From the IMG/VR virus record IMGVR_UViG_3300014962_000004, positions 16,282 to 80,281 of that record: a DNA stretch of 64,000 nucleotides. The stretch is one strand, 5' to 3'. The notes beneath the pieces are model-generated. The model did no database searches and was not told the DNA's origin. It saw only the letters and a program-made list of their open reading frames with translations. This document shows positions 36,135 to 49,929 of this stretch, in pieces. Each line of letters starts with the position of its first letter. Position 1 is the first letter of the stretch. The position numbers were made by a program, and so were the translations under genes. Source of the DNA: a virus.

Positions 36135-37610
36135 CTATCCCTTCACAAACAGAGAGGGGTTGCGGATCTCGATGGCGGTGCCGCGCGGCTTGTGCGCGGT
36201 CCAGCTACTAGTCACCGTCGATTCCCGGCTCGGCGCACTGTAGGCAATGGCCAGATCGGGGGTGAAGATCCGCTTGGAATTACTGGTCTTCTGCGCCGGA
36301 AGGCGGTAGCGAAGATCGTTGGCCTCACCGCCCTTGGCAAGCACTTCGGCTTTCTTGGCCGCGACTGCAGCGGCCTGACTGGCGAATGGGAAATGGTAAT
36401 CCGAGTAGTCCTGGGGGTTGAGCGCCGGAGCCTTTTCCGGGGTCAGACCGAACTTGCCGCCCGGATAATTGTCCGGACTGTCCGCCTTGTCGTAAAGCTG
36501 CCAGGGGCCGTATTCCTCGCTCTGCTCATACCATTCCAGCGACGCTTCGGCCTTGACGCTGCCATCCTTCTGCAGGGTGCCGTAGGTGACCTCGTCGATG
36601 GGCGACCGCTTTCCGCCGGACACCAGGTAGAAGTACCCGTACTCCTGGGTGATGTTGAACTGGCCGTAAGGGGCCAGTTCCGGGGTTTTGGAATTCAGCC
36701 AGCGCTCCGAAGGATCCAGGTCGATGGCGAGCAGTTCCGGCGGCGGCAACTGATCAAGCGCCGGGGTGCCGGTGACTATTTTCTCCACCTGGTAGTAGGT
36801 GGAATCGGCGGTGATCGCCCGCATCGAAATCGGGTAATGAACGCTTAGCCCGTTCGGGTCGATGGTGATGACCGTGTCAATGTCGCGGACCTTGTTCAGC
36901 ATTTCCAGCAGCAGCCGGGCCTCGCGCGGGGTGAGGTCTTTCTTGTGCGGTACGACGGTCACCTCGGAGCGCGACTTGACCTGCTGAATCCGCCATCCGG
37001 TCTTGCCCACCAGGAACGCGTCGGCATCGGCCTTGTCATGGAACAGCACCCGATGACCGGTGTTCATCTGCACGACGGCATACGCCGCACCCTCGGCCCG
37101 GCCCAGCGGCTCGCTGATGCCGAAGTTGTCGATCCAGCGCCAGTTCTCGATAACCTGGCAGTCGGAACTGATCGCCGCATGTACGGTCTCGCGAATGCCG
37201 TCTACGGTGTTGCCGTGGCCGCACGCCTTGAAGTATTCGCGGATCCGGCTACGGTATTGCGCGTCTTTGGCGAACACCTCGTTCCACTGATCCGAATCCA
37301 GCTGTTGCTTCATGGGATCGTAGGTGTACGCCTCGGAGGTGGCCCGGCTCAGGAACCGGACATTGCCGAAGATGTAGTCCAGGTCGGATCCGTAAATGCT
37401 GTCCAGCGAACCCGAAAGGCGCTGCAGGAACGCTTGCTTCTTCAGGCTGCCCGCACCGGAATCGCCGCACAGCGCGTCGATGAACCGGTACAACAAGGTG
37501 TTGGTGTTGGTGCCGCTGGAATACACGTTGTAGACGTGCTCGTCGAAGTGCTCCATCCGAAGCTCGGTGGACTTCGGCGGAAACAACGGAAACGGAGTCT
37601 GGGAAGCCAT
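36135..37610 (-). CDS. Baseplate or tail protein, 491 aa
   Basis: Not recognised by motif. It begins MASQTPFPLFPPKSTELRM and is mixed alpha/beta with many aromatic residues. Its position between baseplate J and the 1487-aa protein fits the tail protein I or baseplate wedge slot of contractile phages. ATG at 37610 is preceded by AGGAAGG within the small membrane-peptide gene. Confidence 0.5.
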   Translation of the reverse strand: MASQTPFPLFPPKSTELRMEHFDEHVYNVYSSGTNTNTLLYRFIDALCGDSGAGSLKKQAFLQRLSGSLDSIYGSDLDYIFGNVRFLSRATSEAYTYDPMKQQLDSDQWNEVFAKDAQYRSRIREYFKACGHGNTVDGIRETVHAAISSDCQVIENWRWIDNFGISEPLGRAEGAAYAVVQMNTGHRVLFHDKADADAFLVGKTGWRIQQVKSRSEVTVVPHKKDLTPREARLLLEMLNKVRDIDTVITIDPNGLSVHYPISMRAITADSTYYQVEKIVTGTPALDQLPPPELLAIDLDPSERWLNSKTPELAPYGQFNITQEYGYFYLVSGGKRSPIDEVTYGTLQKDGSVKAEASLEWYEQSEEYGPWQLYDKADSPDNYPGGKFGLTPEKAPALNPQDYSDYHFPFASQAAAVAAKKAEVLAKGGEANDLRYRLPAQKTSNSKRIFTPDLAIAYSAPSRESTVTSSWTAHKPRGTAIEIRNPSLFVKG

Positions 37611-37740: not shown

Positions 37741-39603
37741 TCATCGGTTAGCCGTCCGGCGGATGATGGCCTCCATGAACACCGGCAACTGGTTGTCGTT
37801 GAGCTTGAAATCCGCTCCGCCCTGAGCGGCTTCGTCATGGATGGCCAGCGGGACGATGTCGGCGCTGTCAACGAAAGTCTGGATTCCGTAGTTGTTCTTG
37901 GTTACGCCGTCGACCTGAACGATGGCTCCGGGGTCGGTCGACTTGGTCAGCTTGACGTTGTCCACGCCAAGCACCTGTCGGACCGCCAGCAGCACGTCAG
38001 ACACCTCGATCCAGGCCCCGTAAGGCAGGCCGGAAAAGTAGGTCTTGAGCTGTTCCTGAACCGCGTTGTTGACCTGCTGCGGCACGAAGCCCCGGTCGTA
38101 TTCCACCGACAGGTAGAGCCGGATGTATTGGTACCCGGCCTGGTGCACCATCACGTCGGTGGCGACCTGCTTGCTGGTCTTGATGACCGCCTGCAACAGC
38201 TGCGGCACCCGGTTGTAGATGTAGGTCAGGGTGACGTTGGTGCCGACCTCGACCCGGTTCGGCATCCACTCAATTCCGGCGATTTCGTAAGGCGTTCCGG
38301 CCAGCAGTGTGGTCGGGTTGGCTCGCAGCTCCGGGGCCGACCGGATCAGGTGGTAATCCACGCCCTGCACGTAGCTGTCGGTGATCGGCACTCCGTCGAT
38401 GACGTTGGTCAGGGTGATGATGGACGGAAAGCTGGTCACCGGCGTGGATCCCAGCCGGGTGAACTTGTGTCCGTTGAGCGGGCTGCCCGGTGTGCCCACG
38501 CGGGCGAAGTTTCCGGCGTAAAGCTGGTCGTTCTCGTCGCTGTTGAGCGTGGTGGCGGTGACTTTGGTGCGCTCGGTGACGGTGTATGGCTCGGCCCCGT
38601 TGACGAACACGTCAACCTTGTTGGTGATGCCGTTCTCCGGGTCGTTGCGGCTGGATCGGGTGGTGTACTCGAATTCCAGATCCACCACGTCACCGACGAC
38701 CATCGCGCCGGTGGGAATCCGGGAGAACTGGGGTCTGCCGGGTGTCGGTCCGCCGACCCACTGATAGTCCACACCGCGCCGGTAGAACACCTCGTCGGAC
38801 TGGCCGAGGTTCTTGTACACGTGCACGTGCCAGTCGCCGTCCCAGGCGTATTTAATGTCGGCGCTGATGTAGGGGTCCATGGTGATGGTCGTGGTGTCGG
38901 GCACGACGATCTGGGTGGCGTATTTCTTGATCGGGCCGAAGCATGCCGCCTTGGACACGTGCTTGTTGGTGTAGCACAGGTTCAGGTACCAGTCCTCGGT
39001 GCCGACCACCGAGCGCAGGAACGTGTTCTTGAACCGCTGGCGCAATTCCGCGTCGGTCTCCACGTCCACGCCGCCGGTAAAGGACTGCAGGTTGGTGACC
39101 GAGGTCGCGCCCAGGATGTCGCCGATGAAGACGATGGTGTCCGGCGGGACGTTGCCGGTAGTGCCGACGATGGTGCATTCCACCGGCACGTCGACGATGT
39201 AGGAGCCAGCCGGGATCATCACGGCCTGGGTAGAGGAGAAGAAGAGCGGGCTTCCCGAGGACGGCAGCGACTGCCGGGTGTAGAACTGGGATCCCAGCGG
39301 GATGTTGATGTCCTGGATGTTGGCCGTGTTCAGCTCTACACGTACCGTTCCGCTGGCCTTGCGGCCCTGTAGCCGCCCGAAACCGAAGATGCCGCAGAAC
39401 TGTTCCAGTTCCAGCCCGGCCTTGCTCTCAATGTCCAGCAGCGACCCGACGAGGTACTGGTCGACGTAGGACTCGCTGATCGCCTCGGCGACCGCATCCA
39501 CAATCTTGCGTTCCGGGGTGCCCAGCTCCAGCGAAAAGCCGGGGGCGGTGACTGCCAGCGTGGCCAGAATTTCCTTAGCCACGATGTCCGGGGTTTTAGC
39601 CAC
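37741..39603 (-). CDS. Baseplate J-like protein, 620 aa
   Basis: Matches the family known from P2 gpJ and T4 gp6: an N-terminal segment (ILATLAVTAPGFSLELGTPE, AEAISESYVDQYLVGSLL), a central FTGGVDVETDAELRQRF region and repeated beta domains. These proteins form the baseplate wedge ring that contacts the sheath. Length is longer than P2 gpJ (about 300) but typical of larger myoviruses. GTG at 39603 precedes the gp25-like gene in the usual operon order. Confidence 0.8.
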   Translation of the reverse strand: MAKTPDIVAKEILATLAVTAPGFSLELGTPERKIVDAVAEAISESYVDQYLVGSLLDIESKAGLELEQFCGIFGFGRLQGRKASGTVRVELNTANIQDINIPLGSQFYTRQSLPSSGSPLFFSSTQAVMIPAGSYIVDVPVECTIVGTTGNVPPDTIVFIGDILGATSVTNLQSFTGGVDVETDAELRQRFKNTFLRSVVGTEDWYLNLCYTNKHVSKAACFGPIKKYATQIVVPDTTTITMDPYISADIKYAWDGDWHVHVYKNLGQSDEVFYRRGVDYQWVGGPTPGRPQFSRIPTGAMVVGDVVDLEFEYTTRSSRNDPENGITNKVDVFVNGAEPYTVTERTKVTATTLNSDENDQLYAGNFARVGTPGSPLNGHKFTRLGSTPVTSFPSIITLTNVIDGVPITDSYVQGVDYHLIRSAPELRANPTTLLAGTPYEIAGIEWMPNRVEVGTNVTLTYIYNRVPQLLQAVIKTSKQVATDVMVHQAGYQYIRLYLSVEYDRGFVPQQVNNAVQEQLKTYFSGLPYGAWIEVSDVLLAVRQVLGVDNVKLTKSTDPGAIVQVDGVTKNNYGIQTFVDSADIVPLAIHDEAAQGGADFKLNDNQLPVFMEAIIRRTANR

Positions 39604-39622: not shown

Positions 39623-40072
39623 TTACTTACGATTGGGCGAAATGAAAGTTCCAGCAGCTTGCCCGTTGGCAATCTTGATGGTGGTGTACTGATTAGATCC
39701 GTTGCGGAGCTTGAGGGTCACCCAGATGGTGTCGTAGCTGAGCTTGACCTTGATGTCTTCGACGGACACCAGCAGCTCGCTGTCCGACAGTTTTTCGGGG
39801 TTTTCCTTGAACCGGCGCAGCTGCGCAGCCTGGTAATTCTGCAATACCCGCAGGATCTCGGACTGCACCTGGGCGCGCACCGACTCCGAAGCGATGGTGC
39901 CGATGAAATCTTCGAGGATGGATCCCATGTTCACGTGGAACCGGTCTCCGCCGTAACGCTCCACCAGCCAGCAGTTGATGTCCTGCCGGAGCTTGTCTAC
40001 CCCGTAGACAAGGTCGAGCCGCGACCCCTTGCGGGCCAGATCGCCGTCGACGATGGCCAGGCTGTAGCTCAC
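39623..40072 (-). CDS. gp25/GPW-like baseplate wedge protein, 149 aa
   Basis: Size, position directly before the J protein, and the sequence style (RQDINCWLVERYGGDRFHV, then NMGSILEDFIGT, and a C-terminal beta part SYDTIWVTLKLR) fit the T4 gp25/P2 gpW lysozyme-like baseplate family. GTG at 40072 with GGAGG eight bases upstream. The catalytic Glu of lysozymes is not expected in this family. Confidence 0.75.
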   Translation of the reverse strand: MSYSLAIVDGDLARKGSRLDLVYGVDKLRQDINCWLVERYGGDRFHVNMGSILEDFIGTIASESVRAQVQSEILRVLQNYQAAQLRRFKENPEKLSDSELLVSVEDIKVKLSYDTIWVTLKLRNGSNQYTTIKIANGQAAGTFISPNRK

Positions 40073-40126: not shown

Positions 40127-40366
40127 TTACTCGACGGGCTGGGCCTCGACGACATCGTTGAGGGTGGCGCGCTTTTCCTCGACCACCGATTCGGTGCGGG
40201 CGCGGCTGGCGGCAGTCAGCAGATCCAGCAGACTGCCCCCGTTGCCGCCCTCACGAGCGATCCTGCCCTCGATCTTGACCCCGTTGGGGCCGTCGGTGAA
40301 GTTGACTTCGGCGAACTCGCCGTTGACCCACTCGGAGCCGTTGACCTCGATGCGCAGGTGTTTCAT
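40127..40366 (-). CDS. Small structural or assembly protein, 79 aa
   Basis: A beta-rich first half (MKHLRIEVNGSEWVNGEF) and a helical, acidic second half. Lies between the esterase-like protein and the gp25-like gene. ATG at 40366. No family recognised. Confidence 0.5.
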   Translation of the reverse strand: MKHLRIEVNGSEWVNGEFAEVNFTDGPNGVKIEGRIAREGGNGGSLLDLLTAASRARTESVVEEKRATLNDVVEAQPVE

Positions 40367-40418: not shown

Positions 40419-42569
40419 TCAGAGACCGTTAACCACGTTCATGAGGTACTGCGCGGCGATTTGGTAGGCAGTTGATCCCGACGAGGGGAAAGTTCCATTG
40501 GCCAGCGGGGGTGGGTAATGCGGGTACAGGGGATGACCGCCGCCGCCGATTGTGGTGCTGATTCCGGTCAGAGCATCGGTGATGACGTGGTTCGCCGCCG
40601 GGGAGGTAATCGTGTTGGTCAAGGCTCCAAAGAATGTAGCCGCCAGCAGTCCGGCGATCTGCCCAATCGGGCCGAAGGCGTACAGCGAGGCCCCGGTGGC
40701 GTTGGTTATGGACTGACCAAGAGCCGAATCTCCGACTCCTGACGCGATTTCCATAGGCATGGTGAAGTCCCAGCACCAGGACGGGGTGTTGGTCATTCGT
40801 AGTTCCGCCGGATACATGCCATGCCCGCCGGTCGTCGAGCCGTCCACATCAAATGCACCTGAATAACCGCTGGAGCCTGGGTAGGTGTGGTTCAGCTCGC
40901 GGGTGGGTGCCCCGAACGTCACCGCCGCCACCAGGTCGTTGGCCCGCGACTCTAGCAGCCCCCCGGCGCGGGTTTCCTTGATCAGGAGGTGGGCCACGGC
41001 ACCGCCCTGGCTATACCCACCAACCGCAAACTTGGTTCCGGCGGGTTTGGTGAGAATGTCGTTGACGATGAACTTCACGCCCGCCTTGATCGAGGACAGG
41101 CCGTTGAGCAGGGTGGCCGGGTAGATGACCCGCTGGATCTGCCATTTGGTCGAGTCGAGCAGCAGCGGGAACGGGTCGTAATGTTCGCCGCCCTCGGAGC
41201 GAATGATCTTTCCGTTCAGACCTTTGATGTTGAAACCGTCGGTCGCCGTCCCCGGATTGGGGATCAGGTTGCCCATGAACTCGGTCAGCCAGGAGGTGCC
41301 GTTGGCCCAATAGAACCGGGGCTTCTTGGAGTCCTGAGAGCCGGGTGGAATGAGTGTGGTTGACCAGCCGACCTGGCCGGTGGTCGGAATGACCAGGGGC
41401 GCGGTAGCGTACACTTTGGCCCTGTCGTTAAGCCACTTCAACGCTAGCTGGTAGCAAGTTTCACTGCCCGGAGCGGGTTGTAGGTAATTGTGTGTGATGA
41501 CGGTTGGGCCAGGGCCAGTACCGGCTCGCGACCGGCCCGACTTGTTGCTAACCCCCGGAACCGAGCTTCGCGGCGGTGAAGTGGCGGTGTATTCGGTTGT
41601 CACCGGAGTCGAAATAGAAGAATAACCGGTGCTGGAGTTATACGGGGGCAAAGATGGGTATAAAACATGACCGCCGCCGCCGACGCTTCCTTGCTGATTG
41701 GCCCCGTCAATTAGATAATTAACAATACTGCCAACGCCACCCATAGCGGTTGAAATTGCGTTAATCAAATTAGATGGTATAAGCCAGCTTAGTAGCCCTT
41801 GAGCAAGGATGTTTCCTAATTGCTCTGGCGTAAAATCTAAAAGAGCACGGTTTCCTTCAGTCCACAATATGCCAGTTTGAGAATCGCCGGTTGAAGTAAT
41901 AACGTCATCGGGATTGGCGAACTCAATCCATTCGGTGCCGTCGCAGTTTGTTAATCTCGCCCACGGCCCATCTGCCGGAAAACTTCCATGCCCTCCGGTG
42001 TCGGATCCTGGAACATCCCAAGCCCCCGACCAGGTGCCGCCAATTTCTCCACGGTGATTGACCTGACGGCGTGGATTACCAAAACACACTCCCCCCAAAA
42101 AAGAAGGATACCGACTAGTTAAAGAACCGTATCTCAGCTCGTTATACACACCCGACATCACCGCCGCGCCCTGTGAAGTTCCCCCGATGGCAAATGGTTT
42201 TCCCGCAGGAAGGGCGTTGATTCTGGCAATTACTTTTTCAATGCCGTCATTGATTGACGCACCCATGCCACCAATAAGCGCACCGCCAGTGGCAGCAACC
42301 CCCAGAAAAGAATCAGCGAAATTGACTCTTTCTGGCTCCCATGCGTCGAGGTCGAGCATGAACGGGAACGGGTCGTTCATCACCCCGTCGGGCCAGGGGA
42401 AGACGGTGCCGTTCAATCCTCTGACGTAGCTGGTGATCGGATCGGCGGAAGGGTTGATTTCTTTGTCGCCCCAGAACCACCGACCTATACCGGCAAGCTG
42501 AAGTCCGGTGCCGAAAACAGAAAACGTGTAAGCGGTGCCGGTGCAGTAGAAGAACGCTGCTTTGCTCAT
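40419..42569 (-). CDS. Tandem two-domain LysB/cutinase-like alpha/beta-hydrolase, 716 aa
   Basis: Two homologous domains are fused. Domain 1 (about residues 1-310) has the nucleophile elbow FAIGGTSQGAA (S132), an acid candidate in ANPDDVI (D222) and GGGGHVLYP (H301). Domain 2 (about 400-716) has FAVGGYSQGGA (S520), MPMEIAS in the acid position (E607) and GGGGHPLYP (H679). A Ser/Thr/Pro-rich linker joins them. Mycobacteriophage LysB enzymes with GYSQG elbows hydrolyse mycolic-acid esters of the cell envelope. Here the protein is encoded among baseplate and fibre genes, so it may act from the virion during entry. Domain 1 DNA is AT-richer than domain 2. ATG at 42569 overlaps the next gene. Confidence 0.8.
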   Translation of the reverse strand: MSKAAFFYCTGTAYTFSVFGTGLQLAGIGRWFWGDKEINPSADPITSYVRGLNGTVFPWPDGVMNDPFPFMLDLDAWEPERVNFADSFLGVAATGGALIGGMGASINDGIEKVIARINALPAGKPFAIGGTSQGAAVMSGVYNELRYGSLTSRYPSFLGGVCFGNPRRQVNHRGEIGGTWSGAWDVPGSDTGGHGSFPADGPWARLTNCDGTEWIEFANPDDVITSTGDSQTGILWTEGNRALLDFTPEQLGNILAQGLLSWLIPSNLINAISTAMGGVGSIVNYLIDGANQQGSVGGGGHVLYPSLPPYNSSTGYSSISTPVTTEYTATSPPRSSVPGVSNKSGRSRAGTGPGPTVITHNYLQPAPGSETCYQLALKWLNDRAKVYATAPLVIPTTGQVGWSTTLIPPGSQDSKKPRFYWANGTSWLTEFMGNLIPNPGTATDGFNIKGLNGKIIRSEGGEHYDPFPLLLDSTKWQIQRVIYPATLLNGLSSIKAGVKFIVNDILTKPAGTKFAVGGYSQGGAVAHLLIKETRAGGLLESRANDLVAAVTFGAPTRELNHTYPGSSGYSGAFDVDGSTTGGHGMYPAELRMTNTPSWCWDFTMPMEIASGVGDSALGQSITNATGASLYAFGPIGQIAGLLAATFFGALTNTITSPAANHVITDALTGISTTIGGGGHPLYPHYPPPLANGTFPSSGSTAYQIAAQYLMNVVNGL

Positions 42570-42814
42570 GCAGGCGGGGCGGCAGGTTCGATGGGCGGCA
42601 GCGGGTCGGCGACGTTAGTTTCGGGGACGTACAAGTCTTCCCATTCCGGGCCTTCCACTTCCTGCGTCCAGGTGTTGCGCGGACCCGTATTGGGAGAGGC
42701 GCACGACCACTCCATCATCATCTGCTGCGGGGTGATGCCGAGCGGGAAGATGTTACGGACAGCTACCTCACCAGTAGTGGTGTTGCGCCGAGTGTGACCA
42801 ACCGTGTATTCCAT
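42566..42814 (-). CDS. Small protein, paralogue 1 of a tandem pair, 82 aa
   Basis: MEYTVGHTRRNTTTGEVAVR, then IFPLGITPQQMMMEWSCA and EVEGPEWEDLYVPE, with a Pro-rich end. It shares most of its core with the next 85-aa protein. The fixed positions of Trp, Cys and Pro suggest a compact domain. The ATG at 42814 has AAAAGGAAA upstream, and its stop overlaps the esterase-like gene start as ATGA. Possibly a fibre-associated chaperone or tip subunit. Confidence 0.65.
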   Translation of the reverse strand: MEYTVGHTRRNTTTGEVAVRNIFPLGITPQQMMMEWSCASPNTGPRNTWTQEVEGPEWEDLYVPETNVADPLPPIEPAAPPA

Positions 42815-42832
42815 TTGTGATTTCCTTTTCAG

Positions 42833-43090
42833 TTACTGCGGGGCAATGTTGAGGGGGCCAGATTGTGCAAGATTTTCTGGCATTAGAATGGGTTCAGGAA
42901 TATACACATCAACCCAGTCCGGCCCTTCGACATCTTGAGTTTTTGCATTGCGTGGCCCCGCGTTGGGGGCGGCACACAGCCATTCCATCATTGCTTCTTC
43001 TGGCGTTTTTCCAATTGGAAAGATGGTTCGCACGGCCACCTCTCCGCTTTCGGTGTTTCGTTTTAGATGGCCAACTGCATAAAAAGACAT
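42833..43090 (-). CDS. Small protein, paralogue 2 of a tandem pair, 85 aa
   Basis: MSFYAVGHLKRNTESGEVAVR, then IFPIGKTPEEAMMEWLCAAP and DVEGPDWVDVYIPEP. It differs from the downstream 82-aa copy mainly at the two ends, consistent with a fairly recent duplication. Its coding DNA is AT-rich like the tip of the neighbouring fibre gene. ATG at 43090. Confidence 0.65.
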   Translation of the reverse strand: MSFYAVGHLKRNTESGEVAVRTIFPIGKTPEEAMMEWLCAAPNAGPRNAKTQDVEGPDWVDVYIPEPILMPENLAQSGPLNIAPQ

Positions 43091-46100: not shown

Positions 46101-47035
46101 TCGAGGATGGCCTGCAGCTGCGTGGGATCGGCCTGGCAGAACAGAACGTCGAACAGGGTCTGGATGAACTGCGTGATACCGCCGATGGCATCCTGCAGCA
46201 GGCTGCCGGTGGATCCGGACACCAACGTGAAGAATTCTTGCAACGCCAGGATGAACGGGTTGCTGGCGACGGGAGCCAACAGATCGCGCACTCTTGCCAG
46301 CAGCGTCTGCGGGGTGAGGTCGCCGTTGAAGTCGCAGAAGATCGTGCTGAATAAGTAGTTGACGAAGTTCTGGAAGCCGTCGATCATCTTGGCTACGTCG
46401 GTGTCGCCGAAACCGAGATCCTTGAAGCCGCCGACAAACACGTTCTGGCACAACAGGTTCCAGAATTCGGAGAAGTTGTCGACGATGGTCTGGACCGAGC
46501 CGCCCCAGTCCTGCAGGGCGCTGGCGGCACCGGAAAGATCCGCGCCCTGGAAGCCGGTCAGCGCAGCCGCGACGGATTGCACCAGATCGTCGGCCTGCGC
46601 CGAGCTGACCGGTGCCCAATTGACTTTGTCGGCGGAGCGTTCCAGGGTGGTGCCGTTGTCCCGGTAGTAGACATCGTTGAGCCGAAACATCTTGCTGTTG
46701 ACCCGGACTTCGGGGCCGTTCAGCTCCAGCGGTCCGTAGGCGGATCCGACCGACACCTGCCCCTCTTCGGGCTTGATGTTCAGGGTCGGGTCGTTGAACG
46801 GGATGCGCCCGTAAAGCCGCCATTCCATGTCGAAGCGTTCGACGTACCACTGCTCGCCGGTGGCCGGGACGGTGATGGTGTCGCCGGTGGCGTAGGCGCA
46901 ATTGATCCGGATGTCGTGCCGGGTCTTAGTCAAGCCCACGGCGGTGCGGCTGATCGGATCAACGGAAATGATCGCGACCGGCTGTATTTCCCGCTCGGAG
47001 GCAGCCCGGCGGGAGAAACCGGTGTCATAAGCCAT
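43106..47035 (-). CDS. Large tail-fibre protein with internal repeats and a jelly-roll tip, 1309 aa
   Basis: Domains in order: an N-terminal structural domain (1-150); four repeats of about 80 residues (160-462) rich in hydrophobic helices ending LF-x-x-L-x-C (NPFILALQEFF, NPFLQGLSSFL, NPLITAIQSFA); a further helical region to about 720; a carbohydrate-binding-like beta domain (residues about 740-900, ending VWWDDISLKK); repeated short motifs; and a C1q/TNF-like beta tip (about 1150-1309). The tip-encoding DNA (43106-43860) is much AT-richer than the rest, typical of exchanged receptor-binding tips. Probable host-recognition protein. ATG at 47035 overlaps the tail lysin stop (TAATG). Confidence 0.7.
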   Translation of the reverse strand: MAYDTGFSRRAASEREIQPVAIISVDPISRTAVGLTKTRHDIRINCAYATGDTITVPATGEQWYVERFDMEWRLYGRIPFNDPTLNIKPEEGQVSVGSAYGPLELNGPEVRVNSKMFRLNDVYYRDNGTTLERSADKVNWAPVSSAQADDLVQSVAAALTGFQGADLSGAASALQDWGGSVQTIVDNFSEFWNLLCQNVFVGGFKDLGFGDTDVAKMIDGFQNFVNYLFSTIFCDFNGDLTPQTLLARVRDLLAPVASNPFILALQEFFTLVSGSTGSLLQDAIGGITQFIQTLFDVLFCQADPTQLQAILDATGDVFGPISIIQAIETFFNVFRLNPFLQGLSSFLQSIAPGLFTGNLLQDAVIGGTKFLSTLFGVLTCDPNSLTTLAGFFNGTPNLTTPQGILATLAGLVTSLMSNPLITAIQSFASQYLGLTGTLLQQIITGTGSLFNWFFKALTTFLPFVPWQALLPFLNWTAINNATVPGINWPTLLTTNLFGMFDSLFSGLLGNAAGAFQNFITNLGKLLNGMGLLGGVLDAQGLRTAIEFFLTNILGIATRGLDGVLQFGGTIVSNVLGAVGAFFENIRDFFGFDLRNLAEGALQPIQMAALFFKNIEKALLAWITSFVFGGHNNLLEWAQINVIGPIVGNLLKGLNIDPAKFGIQSITDIATVGLGLLGDIAGTLLTKFSQIPANLVQGVLPPAVIGSIPVANIADTSPNLITLGKFADTINIEANDGWVWDSTQNAPQSSGGSAKVTISSAKNRYLYSRQAVPVGVGDRLVVTASVKTNAVAVSPAGSTPISIAIIPFVGNDQQPTIIIGNRIQNSAEWTTIGNTTLVPYVVTDSSWTTVMVRLGVDSTATSGVVWWDDISLKKTGGLIQGNVDSLNTAWNQMIGGLKNTGQNTSGLDWTSLYDAAFTARNVADNGYSYSTNTNTTLFGDYRGGSTFYSPQSLIASLFSVKVDGVNTFGELLYYLVYWLSGGTSAVNTVQGVNGAGYTNKDYNSTTRGRLDLINNAMFSNVAGGTVFDVNKLPTLITSLASLKADGTATMNTLLGYLTSALSKNNYSGSTVNDVYTGAKYNGDKTSEASGRIDDTNTKLFGAPQGGNNGKILENALPKTLGAVGSGLLYRKTAATTFTTNYNLAGTRIPYGFFNYEESPATSDIVVSNYNGFLQVRPTLSGWYEVEISYGLTRSLSMYQWYINSVLYKNNLPYKFGTGGANAAYYTGLGGSTSNSVCPEMIHSSFIVYIDASLQETIAPGYAWHPDTGDSRSYDSINFQNVLRTSDNIITWDGNGRYTYFSVSLLNRSLN

Positions 47036-49929
47036 TAGCTTGGCACCTCAGCGGCATTTCGGAACAGATCCTGGCGGTTCGCAATTTCCTGCGCAGTGGC
47101 GCTGGTGAACATGGACACAGCCGTTTGCCATCCAGGCTTCGACGGGGCCATGATCGTCATGGTTGTGGTAAATCCGTTCTCAAAGTCACCGGCGTGAGTT
47201 ACTTCTGCAACATACACCTGCAGTTTGTGTGTAGGCAGATTGACACGCATGCCGGGGAAAATTTCCGGCATAAACGTGGTTTCGATGACCGTCGCGTATT
47301 GCTCGGCCCATTTCTTCATAAAGGTTTGAACGGCCAGCATGAATTCCATCTGACCGGACATGATCGCCGCCATCGACTGGCTCAGGGGGCGAGCGCCGAA
47401 TTTCTCCATGATCTGCTGACCGCTGACCATCCGCTCGCCGGGCACATGCGGGGCAGCAGCGGCCATCCGGGTGAACAACCATTCGTTTTCCACGGTGGCG
47501 ACACCCTTGGTGTTCAACCAACCGGCAATACCGCCACTGGAGGCGTTGAGGGTCGGCGACCCGGCGATGTAGACATGCGTGGCCAATGCGTCATCGTTCA
47601 AGTCAATCTGAACATTCTTCATTTCGATGTCTTCGATGTGCCACACCGCGTCTTTGCCGTCAATGCCGAAATAGTCCGGGTAATAAGCGATGAAGTCGCC
47701 ATTGGGCGCAGATTGGAAATTGCGAAGACCCGCTTGCGAAAAGCTGATGACAGTCTGAATCAGCTGTTCATCGTTGATAAACGCTTTTTCTTCCGTTCCC
47801 GGCGCATTGCCAAGCATGGCGGCAATTTTTCTGCCGTAATCTTGCGCGCCGGGAAAGAACTGATACGTGAACAGGTTACGGGCGATTGGCTCGGTGTGTC
47901 CGGTACCGGTGGTGCCGTTGAGGCCGGTGGTCGACGTACCGGCGGTCACGTTGTTGGCGCGGTTAATGGCCCGGTTGATGTCGAACGGAGCAAACGGGGA
48001 TCCGCCGTATTCGGCTCCGGGCACCCGACGGATCTGGGCGGTCGTCATGTCGAAGTAGATCTCGCGCTCGTGCACCGGCACCCCGAATGTCGATGCTTCG
48101 ACCATCATGTTTCCGCCCGCATACATCGCGACGTGCTCGTTATGCGGGAAGATCAGATCGCCTGGCACCATGTTTTCCAGCGGAACGGGCTGCAAAGAGG
48201 CCAGCTGTGCGTTGGTGTTGTGCACGATATTCAGGCCGATGGAAGCGTAGGCGAACAGCATCAGCCCCGAGCAGTCGAAGCCGTTTGGACCCTCCCCTCC
48301 CCACACGTAAGGTTTGCCGATCTGAGCGCGAGCGCATGACAGCGCACCGGCGGTGTCGTAGGCGGGTCTGCCCGCCGCGATGGAGGCCGACATCGCGCCG
48401 GGGGTTCCGTTGACGGTGGGAATCGACGGAATCGGCGAGCTGGTCGTGCCGGGCAGCGCCGGGGTTGAGACCGATCCGACCGGGGTCGCTCCGGCGTTGA
48501 ATCCGGGGATCGGGTTTCCGTTGTCTTGAGCACCCGCCCCGGCCCCGGTTCCGGATCCAGACCGGATGGCCCGCACCTGCTCGATGGCGATCTGCTCGTG
48601 CTTTTTGTAGTTGGAGCCGTCTGAGTATGCCGACCGTTGCACAGCCTGGCAAGCGGCGGCGCGGTCCATGTTGCGCCACTCCAGGCGGTTCAGCGCCTGC
48701 AGAAACATCTGGGTGCTGGCCTTGACGTTCATCCGCTGCCGGACATCGCCCCACTCGCCGAAGTTCTGCTGCTGGTACAGCCCGACTGACGTGCCGTCCG
48801 GAGAGATGAAGCCGGGATCCGGGTTGTAGTTGAACGATTCCGGGACAGCCCGATTGGCGTACATGTGCCAGTTGGATTCGGCGGCAATGGTCATGAAGCA
48901 GTGCACGGCGGCATCGTCTTTCAGCGCCGCGTCAGTCCAGTTCTTACCGACCTGTTGCAGCGATTCCCACGCTTGCTGGTCGCGCTGATCTTTGCCGCCC
49001 AGCGCCGACCCGGCAACACCTTGGGCGGCGGCGATCTGAGCGCTGTTCGGCCCCATGCCCATTTCGTCGACGGCCTTAATGACTTCCAGCATGCGCTCCG
49101 GCTGGGTCAGTGCGTAGCCGCCCATCGTTACGCCCTGCTGCATGCCAGCAGCCTTACCCACACCCAGGCTGGTGTCGCCCTCGCCGAGAATCAGTTTCTT
49201 GAATTCCTCGATGTTGGCATTGTCTCCGGGAGTCATCTGCCTGAGCTGTTGCTCCATGATCTCGAAGAATCGAACCGGGAACCGTTGAATGTGAATGTTT
49301 TTCGGATCCCACTTACCGACCAGCACCAGCAGGCGGCGCAGCAGCGAGCCGAGACCGGCATCGACGATGGATTCGCCGTTCTGCTGCTCTACCTGCGCGG
49401 CGGTGATCTGAGAAAAGATTTCCTGCGAGGCGGGAAGGGCCGGATCCCACCAGGTGTTCATCAGCCGCTTGAGCGTGCACGACGCGCGGAAGCTGACAGT
49501 GCCGGGATAAAGCTGTACGTGCGGCACGCTATCGAGGTATCCGGAGAACACCTGCACCCACTCGACGCGCTTGAGCCAGATGATGACCCGGTCCATACGC
49601 TCAAACAACTGGTTATAGCGCAATTTTTTGGGGTCGTTCGACGCAGCCTTGTTCGACAGCCGGAATACCGCCGAGGACACACCGTTTTCCACGCGGCGAA
49701 TCGACCATGCGACTACGTCGTTGGACACGTCGTACTGCTTGTTGCCCCGAGCGATGTAGATCCGAACATCTGGCGAGTACACCAGCGTTCTCATGGGTGG
49801 AGGGCTGGTGGGGTCGATGTTGATTACATTCTCGGCGTTCACCGTTTGTTGTGCCGACGGATCAGCACCATTAATGATGTTAGTGTTCGGCCCCGCGTTG
49901 CTCAGTGCCGATGTGACGGGATCGGTCAC
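47035..49929 (-). CDS. Tail-associated lysin and hub protein with lysozyme-like and NlpC/P60 domains, 964 aa
   Basis: Residues 50-160 resemble a tail-hub domain. Residues about 335-456 form a lytic-transglycosylase-like domain with a catalytic Glu candidate in IAAESNWHMY (E351), followed by SVGLYQQQNFGEWGD. A Gly/Pro-rich linker leads to an NlpC/P60 endopeptidase (about 525-640) with YVWGGEGPNGFDCSGLM (C553) and HNEHVAMYAGG (H599). The C-terminal part returns to hub-like beta structure. Two peptidoglycan-cleaving activities on one virion protein would open the wall for genome entry. GTG at 49929 overlaps the next gene as GTGA. Confidence 0.82.
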   Translation of the reverse strand: MTDPVTSALSNAGPNTNIINGADPSAQQTVNAENVINIDPTSPPPMRTLVYSPDVRIYIARGNKQYDVSNDVVAWSIRRVENGVSSAVFRLSNKAASNDPKKLRYNQLFERMDRVIIWLKRVEWVQVFSGYLDSVPHVQLYPGTVSFRASCTLKRLMNTWWDPALPASQEIFSQITAAQVEQQNGESIVDAGLGSLLRRLLVLVGKWDPKNIHIQRFPVRFFEIMEQQLRQMTPGDNANIEEFKKLILGEGDTSLGVGKAAGMQQGVTMGGYALTQPERMLEVIKAVDEMGMGPNSAQIAAAQGVAGSALGGKDQRDQQAWESLQQVGKNWTDAALKDDAAVHCFMTIAAESNWHMYANRAVPESFNYNPDPGFISPDGTSVGLYQQQNFGEWGDVRQRMNVKASTQMFLQALNRLEWRNMDRAAACQAVQRSAYSDGSNYKKHEQIAIEQVRAIRSGSGTGAGAGAQDNGNPIPGFNAGATPVGSVSTPALPGTTSSPIPSIPTVNGTPGAMSASIAAGRPAYDTAGALSCARAQIGKPYVWGGEGPNGFDCSGLMLFAYASIGLNIVHNTNAQLASLQPVPLENMVPGDLIFPHNEHVAMYAGGNMMVEASTFGVPVHEREIYFDMTTAQIRRVPGAEYGGSPFAPFDINRAINRANNVTAGTSTTGLNGTTGTGHTEPIARNLFTYQFFPGAQDYGRKIAAMLGNAPGTEEKAFINDEQLIQTVISFSQAGLRNFQSAPNGDFIAYYPDYFGIDGKDAVWHIEDIEMKNVQIDLNDDALATHVYIAGSPTLNASSGGIAGWLNTKGVATVENEWLFTRMAAAAPHVPGERMVSGQQIMEKFGARPLSQSMAAIMSGQMEFMLAVQTFMKKWAEQYATVIETTFMPEIFPGMRVNLPTHKLQVYVAEVTHAGDFENGFTTTMTIMAPSKPGWQTAVSMFTSATAQEIANRQDLFRNAAEVPS

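Follow-up and report, generated by a model that had tools for sequence, protein, structure and literature searches.

Two fused LysB-fold hydrolase domains in the tail gene module of a Bxz1-like phage: a putative mycolate esterase of entry

The window analysed here, a stretch of 64,000 nucleotides from a virus record of 150,100 bases, carries within its tail and baseplate module a gene in which two homologous hydrolase domains of the LysB/cutinase type are fused. The product is probably a tail esterase, associated with the baseplate or the fibres, whose two LysB-fold catalytic domains would hydrolyse mycolate esters at entry. Its use at entry, its presence in the virion and its substrate are predictions from sequence, and the tail role of this stand-alone gene is argued from its relatives and its location. 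The strongest evidence for a role in the virion tail comes from related domains that are fused to tail proteins, although these are proteins of other phages and not the window ORF itself.

The open reading frame and its genomic setting

The hydrolase ORF begins with an ATG and encodes 716 aa with no internal stop (Table 1). The first-pass annotation had read it as two homologous domains in a single protein lying between fibre and baseplate genes, and both statements are borne out: the two halves are 35% identical over 245 aa (E 2e-31), and the flanking genes could be identified by Pfam and PHROG. The residues that it had named (S132/D222/H301 and S520/E607/H679) are all found at these positions of the translation. 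The kinship with LysB and cutinases is likewise upheld, with Pfam Cutinase (PF01083) matching the second half at 46.4 bits (cut-off 25.9), PE-PPE (PF08237) matching the first half at 35.8 (cut-off 21) and PHROG_102, the LysB family (labelled ‘endolysin’), matching each of the halves (E 4.5e-45 with the complete protein), in addition to the structural match of the second domain given below. Chance is excluded for the reading frame, the domain matches and the gene context.

The first domain, D1, consists of an N-terminal FFYCTGTAY, the hydrolase core, a long linker between the catalytic acid and the histidine and a C-terminal tail of the GWSTTL type, an ending also seen in stand-alone relatives. 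The second, D2, begins at RFYWANGTSW, which is the position at which stand-alone genes start. The C-terminal peptide P-x-V-x-P...GWSTTLxPP shared by stand-alone copies of the tail clade (about aa 400–411 in D1 of the window) is absent from D2, and is possibly a docking tail.

Baseplate J of the window phage is 63.7% identical to its counterpart in Mycobacterium phage Gizmo (Bxz1 group, Ceeclamvirinae), and the phage is therefore a Bxz1-like myovirus. In the order of transcription, on the minus strand, a tail protein with an NlpC/P60 domain is followed by a fibre-like protein, two paralogues of 82–85 aa, the twin hydrolase, a 79-aa ORF, gp25, baseplate J, a DUF7297 protein and a large tail protein, so that the hydrolase occupies a slot between the fibre and gp25/baseplate J in a same-strand series of genes that resembles an operon. 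The small upstream gene, recognizable by RN..TGEVA...WEDLY, adjoins a hydrolase gene also in L015, L014, L024, L027 and L062, while L013 and L054 carry it with no adjoining hydrolase; the two partners can thus be separate. The 82-aa protein gave no matches in INPHARED, and neither it nor its 85-aa paralogue had any in PHROGs. This tandem pair (42566–43090) represents an undescribed family, in which the ORF transcribed first seems by eye to be richer in AT than the second. At the other side of the hydrolase, the 79-aa ORF is present even in L024 and L025, whose contigs have no baseplate J match.

Table 1. Features of the twin-hydrolase gene and its neighbours, in window coordinates.
Feature	Position	Strand	Basis or remark
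Tail protein with NlpC/P60 peptidoglycan-hydrolase domain	47035..49929	minus	phrog_2810
Fibre-like minor tail protein, 1309 aa	43106..47035	minus	phrog_2952 at N-terminus, phrog_746/346
85-aa paralogue of the 82-aa partner ORF	42833..43090	minus	in tandem with the 82-aa ORF
82-aa partner ORF (RN..TGEVA...WEDLY family)	42566..42814	minus	TGA stop overlaps hydrolase ATG (ATGA)
Twin-hydrolase ORF, two fused LysB-like α/β-hydrolase domains	40419..42569	minus	Pfam, PHROG, half-versus-half alignment
D1 (aa 1–411)	41337..42569	minus	alignment with 411-aa single gene of L015, 57% identity
D1 nucleophile codon, Ser132	42174..42176	minus	GGTSQG(AA)
D1 acid codon, Asp222	41904..41906	minus	motif NPDDVIT
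D1 histidine codon, His301	41667..41669	minus	motif GGGGHVLYP
D2 (aa 412–716)	40422..41336	minus	AlphaFold2 model; 41% identity to N-terminal domain of L049 tail protein, E 4e-65
D2 nucleophile codon, Ser520	41010..41012	minus	motif GGYSQGG
D2 acid codon, Glu607	40749..40751	minus	motif MPMEIAS
D2 histidine codon, His679	40533..40535	minus	motif GGGGHPLYP
79-aa ORF directly downstream of hydrolase	40127..40366	minus	also downstream of hydrolase in L014, L015, L017, L024, L025
gp25-like baseplate protein	39623..40072	minus	phrog_2669
Baseplate J / wedge protein	37741..39603	minus	63.7% identical to Gizmo gp145
DUF7297 virion protein	36135..37610	minus	phrog_2813; carries embedded LysB-like domains in L019, L029–L032

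The hydrolase gene lies neither in nor near the lysis cassette of the phage, which is found about 54 kb away (G000:C1:2138-4748) and comprises LysA (389 aa), a holin and a canonical LysB (331 bits to phrog_102). As a complete cassette with its own LysB is present in the same genome, the twin hydrolase is not the LysB of this phage. The same holds more widely in that five related contigs (G001, G004, G008, G009 and G010) carry a tail-type or embedded copy together with another LysB-family match elsewhere; G001, the record of L014, adds to its two tail copies both a canonical LysB and one more match to the LysB family (C1:94549-96203, 110675-111595). The same gene frame is present in Gizmo, Phrappuccino and Rhodococcus phage E3, with the hydrolase missing from the slot, and since these nearest cultured relatives do without it, entry in that lineage does not depend on the enzyme.

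Relatives, domain architectures and ancestry

The hydrolase ORF, used as a single-protein query against viral contigs, returned no matches; relatives were found by way of baseplate J and subsequently with alignments. The same slot is occupied in L015 by a single gene (see D1 in Table 1) and in L014 by two separate tandem genes, while L024 and L027, from contigs with no baseplate J match, present a single gene following a fibre of the phrog_746/346 type and preceded by a similar small ORF. In three further contigs the hydrolase domain forms the N-terminal part of a tail protein of 890, 1005 or 1137 aa. The fusion partner is a Dit-like protein in L047 (phrog_106, with a weak Sipho_tail match), another minor tail protein in L049 (phrog_13352), whose N-terminal domain aligns with D2 over 302 columns at the identity given in Table 1, and a Gp37-like tail protein in L050 (Sipho_Gp37, PF14594, E 5.6e-41). 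Yet another arrangement is seen in L019, L029, L030 and L031, where two LysB-like domains reside within the DUF7297 baseplate protein as one ORF, the pair lying between the positions that correspond to residues 354 and 357 of the DUF7297 protein encoded in the window; L030 and L031 barely differ over the region matched, and L032 shows the start of this arrangement before the contig ends.

Several additional proteins were observed in the course of this comparison. Tail-region proteins of L034 (8294-10621) and L041 (13830-15494), assigned to phrog_3329/282, carry a hydrolase-like domain at the N-terminus (PE-PPE for L034), and that of L034 has a further domain of LysB type at the C-terminus; the nucleophilic serine is seemingly missing from the two L034 domains and from the domain of StAugustine gp42. 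A 539-aa protein with a LysB/cutinase-like stretch (L064:177-1796) lies on a contig binned as Elusimicrobia, which would be unusual outside the mycolic-acid bacteria, and the contig is possibly misbinned. In three contigs (L014:11988-14477, L015:11988-14489 and L040:6726-9089) an intein-like insert (CADEETEILTRSGY ... TYFTGN|S) interrupts the DUF7297 gene in frame, at one shared site following residue ~161, the window copy having none, and the baseplate J ORF of L019 (9992-12523, 843 aa) likewise has an intein-like insert (CLIPETRVLTDG ... GLLSHN|T).

In the phylogenetic tree both domains of the twin hydrolase fall within a tail clade of 14 rows (support 100/99), outside the clade of canonical lysis LysB (12 rows, 96/93). 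The copies embedded in DUF7297 form a sister group of their own (72/49). The minimum number of changes (2) suffices to explain the context labels on the tree, these labels being less certain for L063 (a Mycolicibacterium sphagni chromosome) and L048 (a contig end). The small Gordonia phages GRU3, GMA5 and Coeur were considered as evidence for a tail role and rejected: in each, the tail genes end with a stand-alone LysB, annotated ‘structural’ or ‘endolysin’, and the genes of GRU3 and Coeur fall in the canonical clade.

The two domains had been regarded as a duplicated form, and a simple internal duplication of one domain is not sustained by this topology. D1 is sister to L015 (100/99) and D2 branches near L049, L047 and L050 with no resolution among them; a tree constrained to make D1 and D2 sisters is rejected (p-AU 0.0017), a result to be read with some caution as D2 is a long branch. 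The GC content at third codon positions also differs, being 0.55 in D1 and 0.77 in D2. The rejection of the sister grouping and the difference in GC3 thus lead us to view the gene as a joining of two lineages, and D1 and D2 would then descend from different lineages of the tail clade, brought together head to tail by gene fusion. By contrast, the two genes of L014 are a local duplicate (100/100). Within D1 the GC3 drops to 0.37 (aa 241–300, window region 41670–41849) as against 0.77 for D2, which suggests a recent acquisition of D1 from a source of lower GC.

Catalytic residues and fold

A set of LysB enzymes analysed earlier shares the motif G-Y/F-S-Q-G, with Ser and Asp absolutely conserved (PMC7022511). 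D1 reads G-T-S-Q-G and has a predicted Ser-Asp-His triad; in the predicted Ser-Glu-His triad of D2 a glutamate replaces the aspartate. The acid and the histidine are separated by 79 residues in D1 (D222–H301) and by 72 in D2 (E607–H679); in LysB of phage D29 a long linker likewise separates D166 from H240, whereas cutinases have 12 residues (PMC7022511). Both spacings, as read from the predicted triads, are thus LysB-like and unlike those of cutinases.

Structure prediction against LysB, proposed at first pass as a check, was run for D2. The AlphaFold2 model, from a 24-row alignment (pLDDT 82.8, pTM 0.86), finds D29 LysB (3HC7) as its best match in the PDB (E 2.3e-7, probability 1.00), followed by mycobacterial Rv3802c and fungal esterases, and places Ser520 at a strand–turn–helix elbow (E103–108, H110–121), as the fold predicts. 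A profile comparison with 3HC7 gives E 8.7e-45, the profile containing some canonical LysB rows. The model of the full-length protein is of low confidence (pLDDT 50.5) and is counted as weak support; its best Foldseek matches are Rv3802c and an acetylxylan esterase.

The replacement of Asp by Glu in D2 had been proposed to mark a domain altered for binding over cleavage, a proposal that the relatives do not favour. All 14 tail-clade copies have Ser, Asp or Glu, and His, together with the N-terminal Gly-Thr and the Gln that follows the Ser, and Glu is the acid in five of them (D2, L014a, L014b, L027 and L049). Glu607 was accordingly rejected as a sign of catalytic decay, since Glu recurs in relatives with Ser and His intact and so provides no evidence of lost catalysis; in the Candida rugosa lipase, too, a Glu serves as the acid of the triad (PMC7022511). 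The embedded copies present a different picture, with the nucleophile a Ser in L029a only, an Asp in L019a and L030a and a Gly in every second copy. As these copies mostly lack the nucleophile, a non-catalytic role is likely for them, at least outside the window phage. To judge from these residues, the conversion to non-catalytic domains has happened in the embedded relatives and not in the window protein.

Proposed function, alternatives and implications

The first-pass annotation had favoured a tail role acting on the envelope over that of an ordinary LysB, and this gains support from the presence of a separate LysB, a holin and a LysA elsewhere in the genome and from the fusion of related domains to tail proteins. 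Location alone is weak evidence: Gordonia phages are known in which a stand-alone LysB gene lies among the tail genes (PMC5559632), and the tail-type genes of L025 and L062 stand directly or almost directly before lysA. For these same reasons the main rival is an accessory second lysis enzyme, made late, which would help LysB to strip the mycolate layer at burst, its place among the tail genes being a matter of convenience of transcription. The ability of lysis genes to lie inside tail operons (PMC5559632) agrees with this account, as does the fact that a Pfam/PHROG scan of the twin-hydrolase ORF revealed no obvious known tail-anchoring domain; the complete lysis cassette elsewhere in the genome, the clear separation of the tail-clade domains from canonical LysB and the three contigs in which such domains are joined to structural proteins of the tail speak against it, and we regard it as rather unlikely. 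Less probable still is a receptor-binding or structural module, a tail adhesin in which the LysB fold would hold on to mycolates or glycolipids while cleaving them little or not at all. Such a module would be in keeping with the loss of the nucleophile from the embedded relatives and, seemingly, from the L034 and StAugustine domains, but both window domains keep Ser, acid, His, the Gln after the Ser and the N-terminal Gly-Thr, and the glutamate of D2 is an acid found in intact relatives and in the C. rugosa lipase. That a sequencing error fused two tandem genes, as the separate units of L014 might suggest, is very improbable, given an ORF that is clean across the junction, the missing stand-alone start codon at the beginning of D2 and the differing lineages and GC3 of the two domains, and it would leave the enzyme content unchanged.

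On the preferred reading of a tail esterase, the protein would be carried by the virion close to the fibres and, once the phage has attached, would hydrolyse mycolate esters (mycolyl-arabinogalactan and/or trehalose mycolates); the local loosening of the outer membrane would then let the contractile tail and the NlpC/P60 peptidoglycan hydrolase reach the inner layers.

Such an enzyme has features in common with several known systems. With the mycobacteriophage LysB, a mycolylarabinogalactan esterase (D29 gp12, PDB 3HC7; PHROG_102), it shares the α/β-hydrolase fold, the G-x-S-Q-G motif, the order Ser-acid-His and the long acid-His linker, but differs in its two fused domains, tail-gene context, position in a non-canonical clade and Glu in D2. 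Cutinases, Rv3802c/MSMEG_6394 (Culp6) and the PE-PPE esterase domain share the fold and the nucleophile motif; the acid-His gap of cutinases is however about 12 residues (PMC7022511) compared with 72–79 here, and Rv3802c and MSMEG_6394 are host proteins, unlike the twin hydrolase. In virion-associated lysins an enzyme domain (NlpC/P60 or lysozyme) likewise lies in or beside tail or baseplate proteins, but these cut peptidoglycan, whereas the target of the twin esterase would be the mycolate esters in the outer membrane. Gizmo gp177 and StAugustine gp35, with a tail-borne D-Ala-D-Ala-carboxypeptidase/β-lactamase fold, are similarly envelope-enzyme folds annotated as minor tail proteins, their fold and presumed substrate differing from those of the twin esterase. 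The recent reviews and tail structures consulted treat LysB as a release enzyme only and mention no tail component that cleaves mycolates (PMC6116005, PMC6116114, PMC13033339, PMC13252515). While the LysB enzymes, the tail hydrolases and the cutinase fold are all familiar, no description of a tail-borne LysB or of a tail clade of LysB-fold enzymes was found in the openly licensed papers searched.

For the phages of mycolic-acid bacteria as a group we lean, with somewhat less assurance, towards the view that they carry a distinct clade of entry esterases, of LysB fold and located in or beside the tail, that would open the mycomembrane from outside. The module of fibre, small partner and esterase may move between tail sets of contractile and non-contractile type, and some of its enzymes would have decayed to paired dead domains of the baseplate, probably lipid-binding adhesins. 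These data suggest that an enzyme family of the lysis type has been put to new use in virions, where some of its members have become pseudoenzymes. The way in which mycobacteriophages get through the mycomembrane at entry is poorly understood, and a tail clade of LysB-like enzymes makes this question directly testable as well as offering a source of new mycolate-active enzymes.
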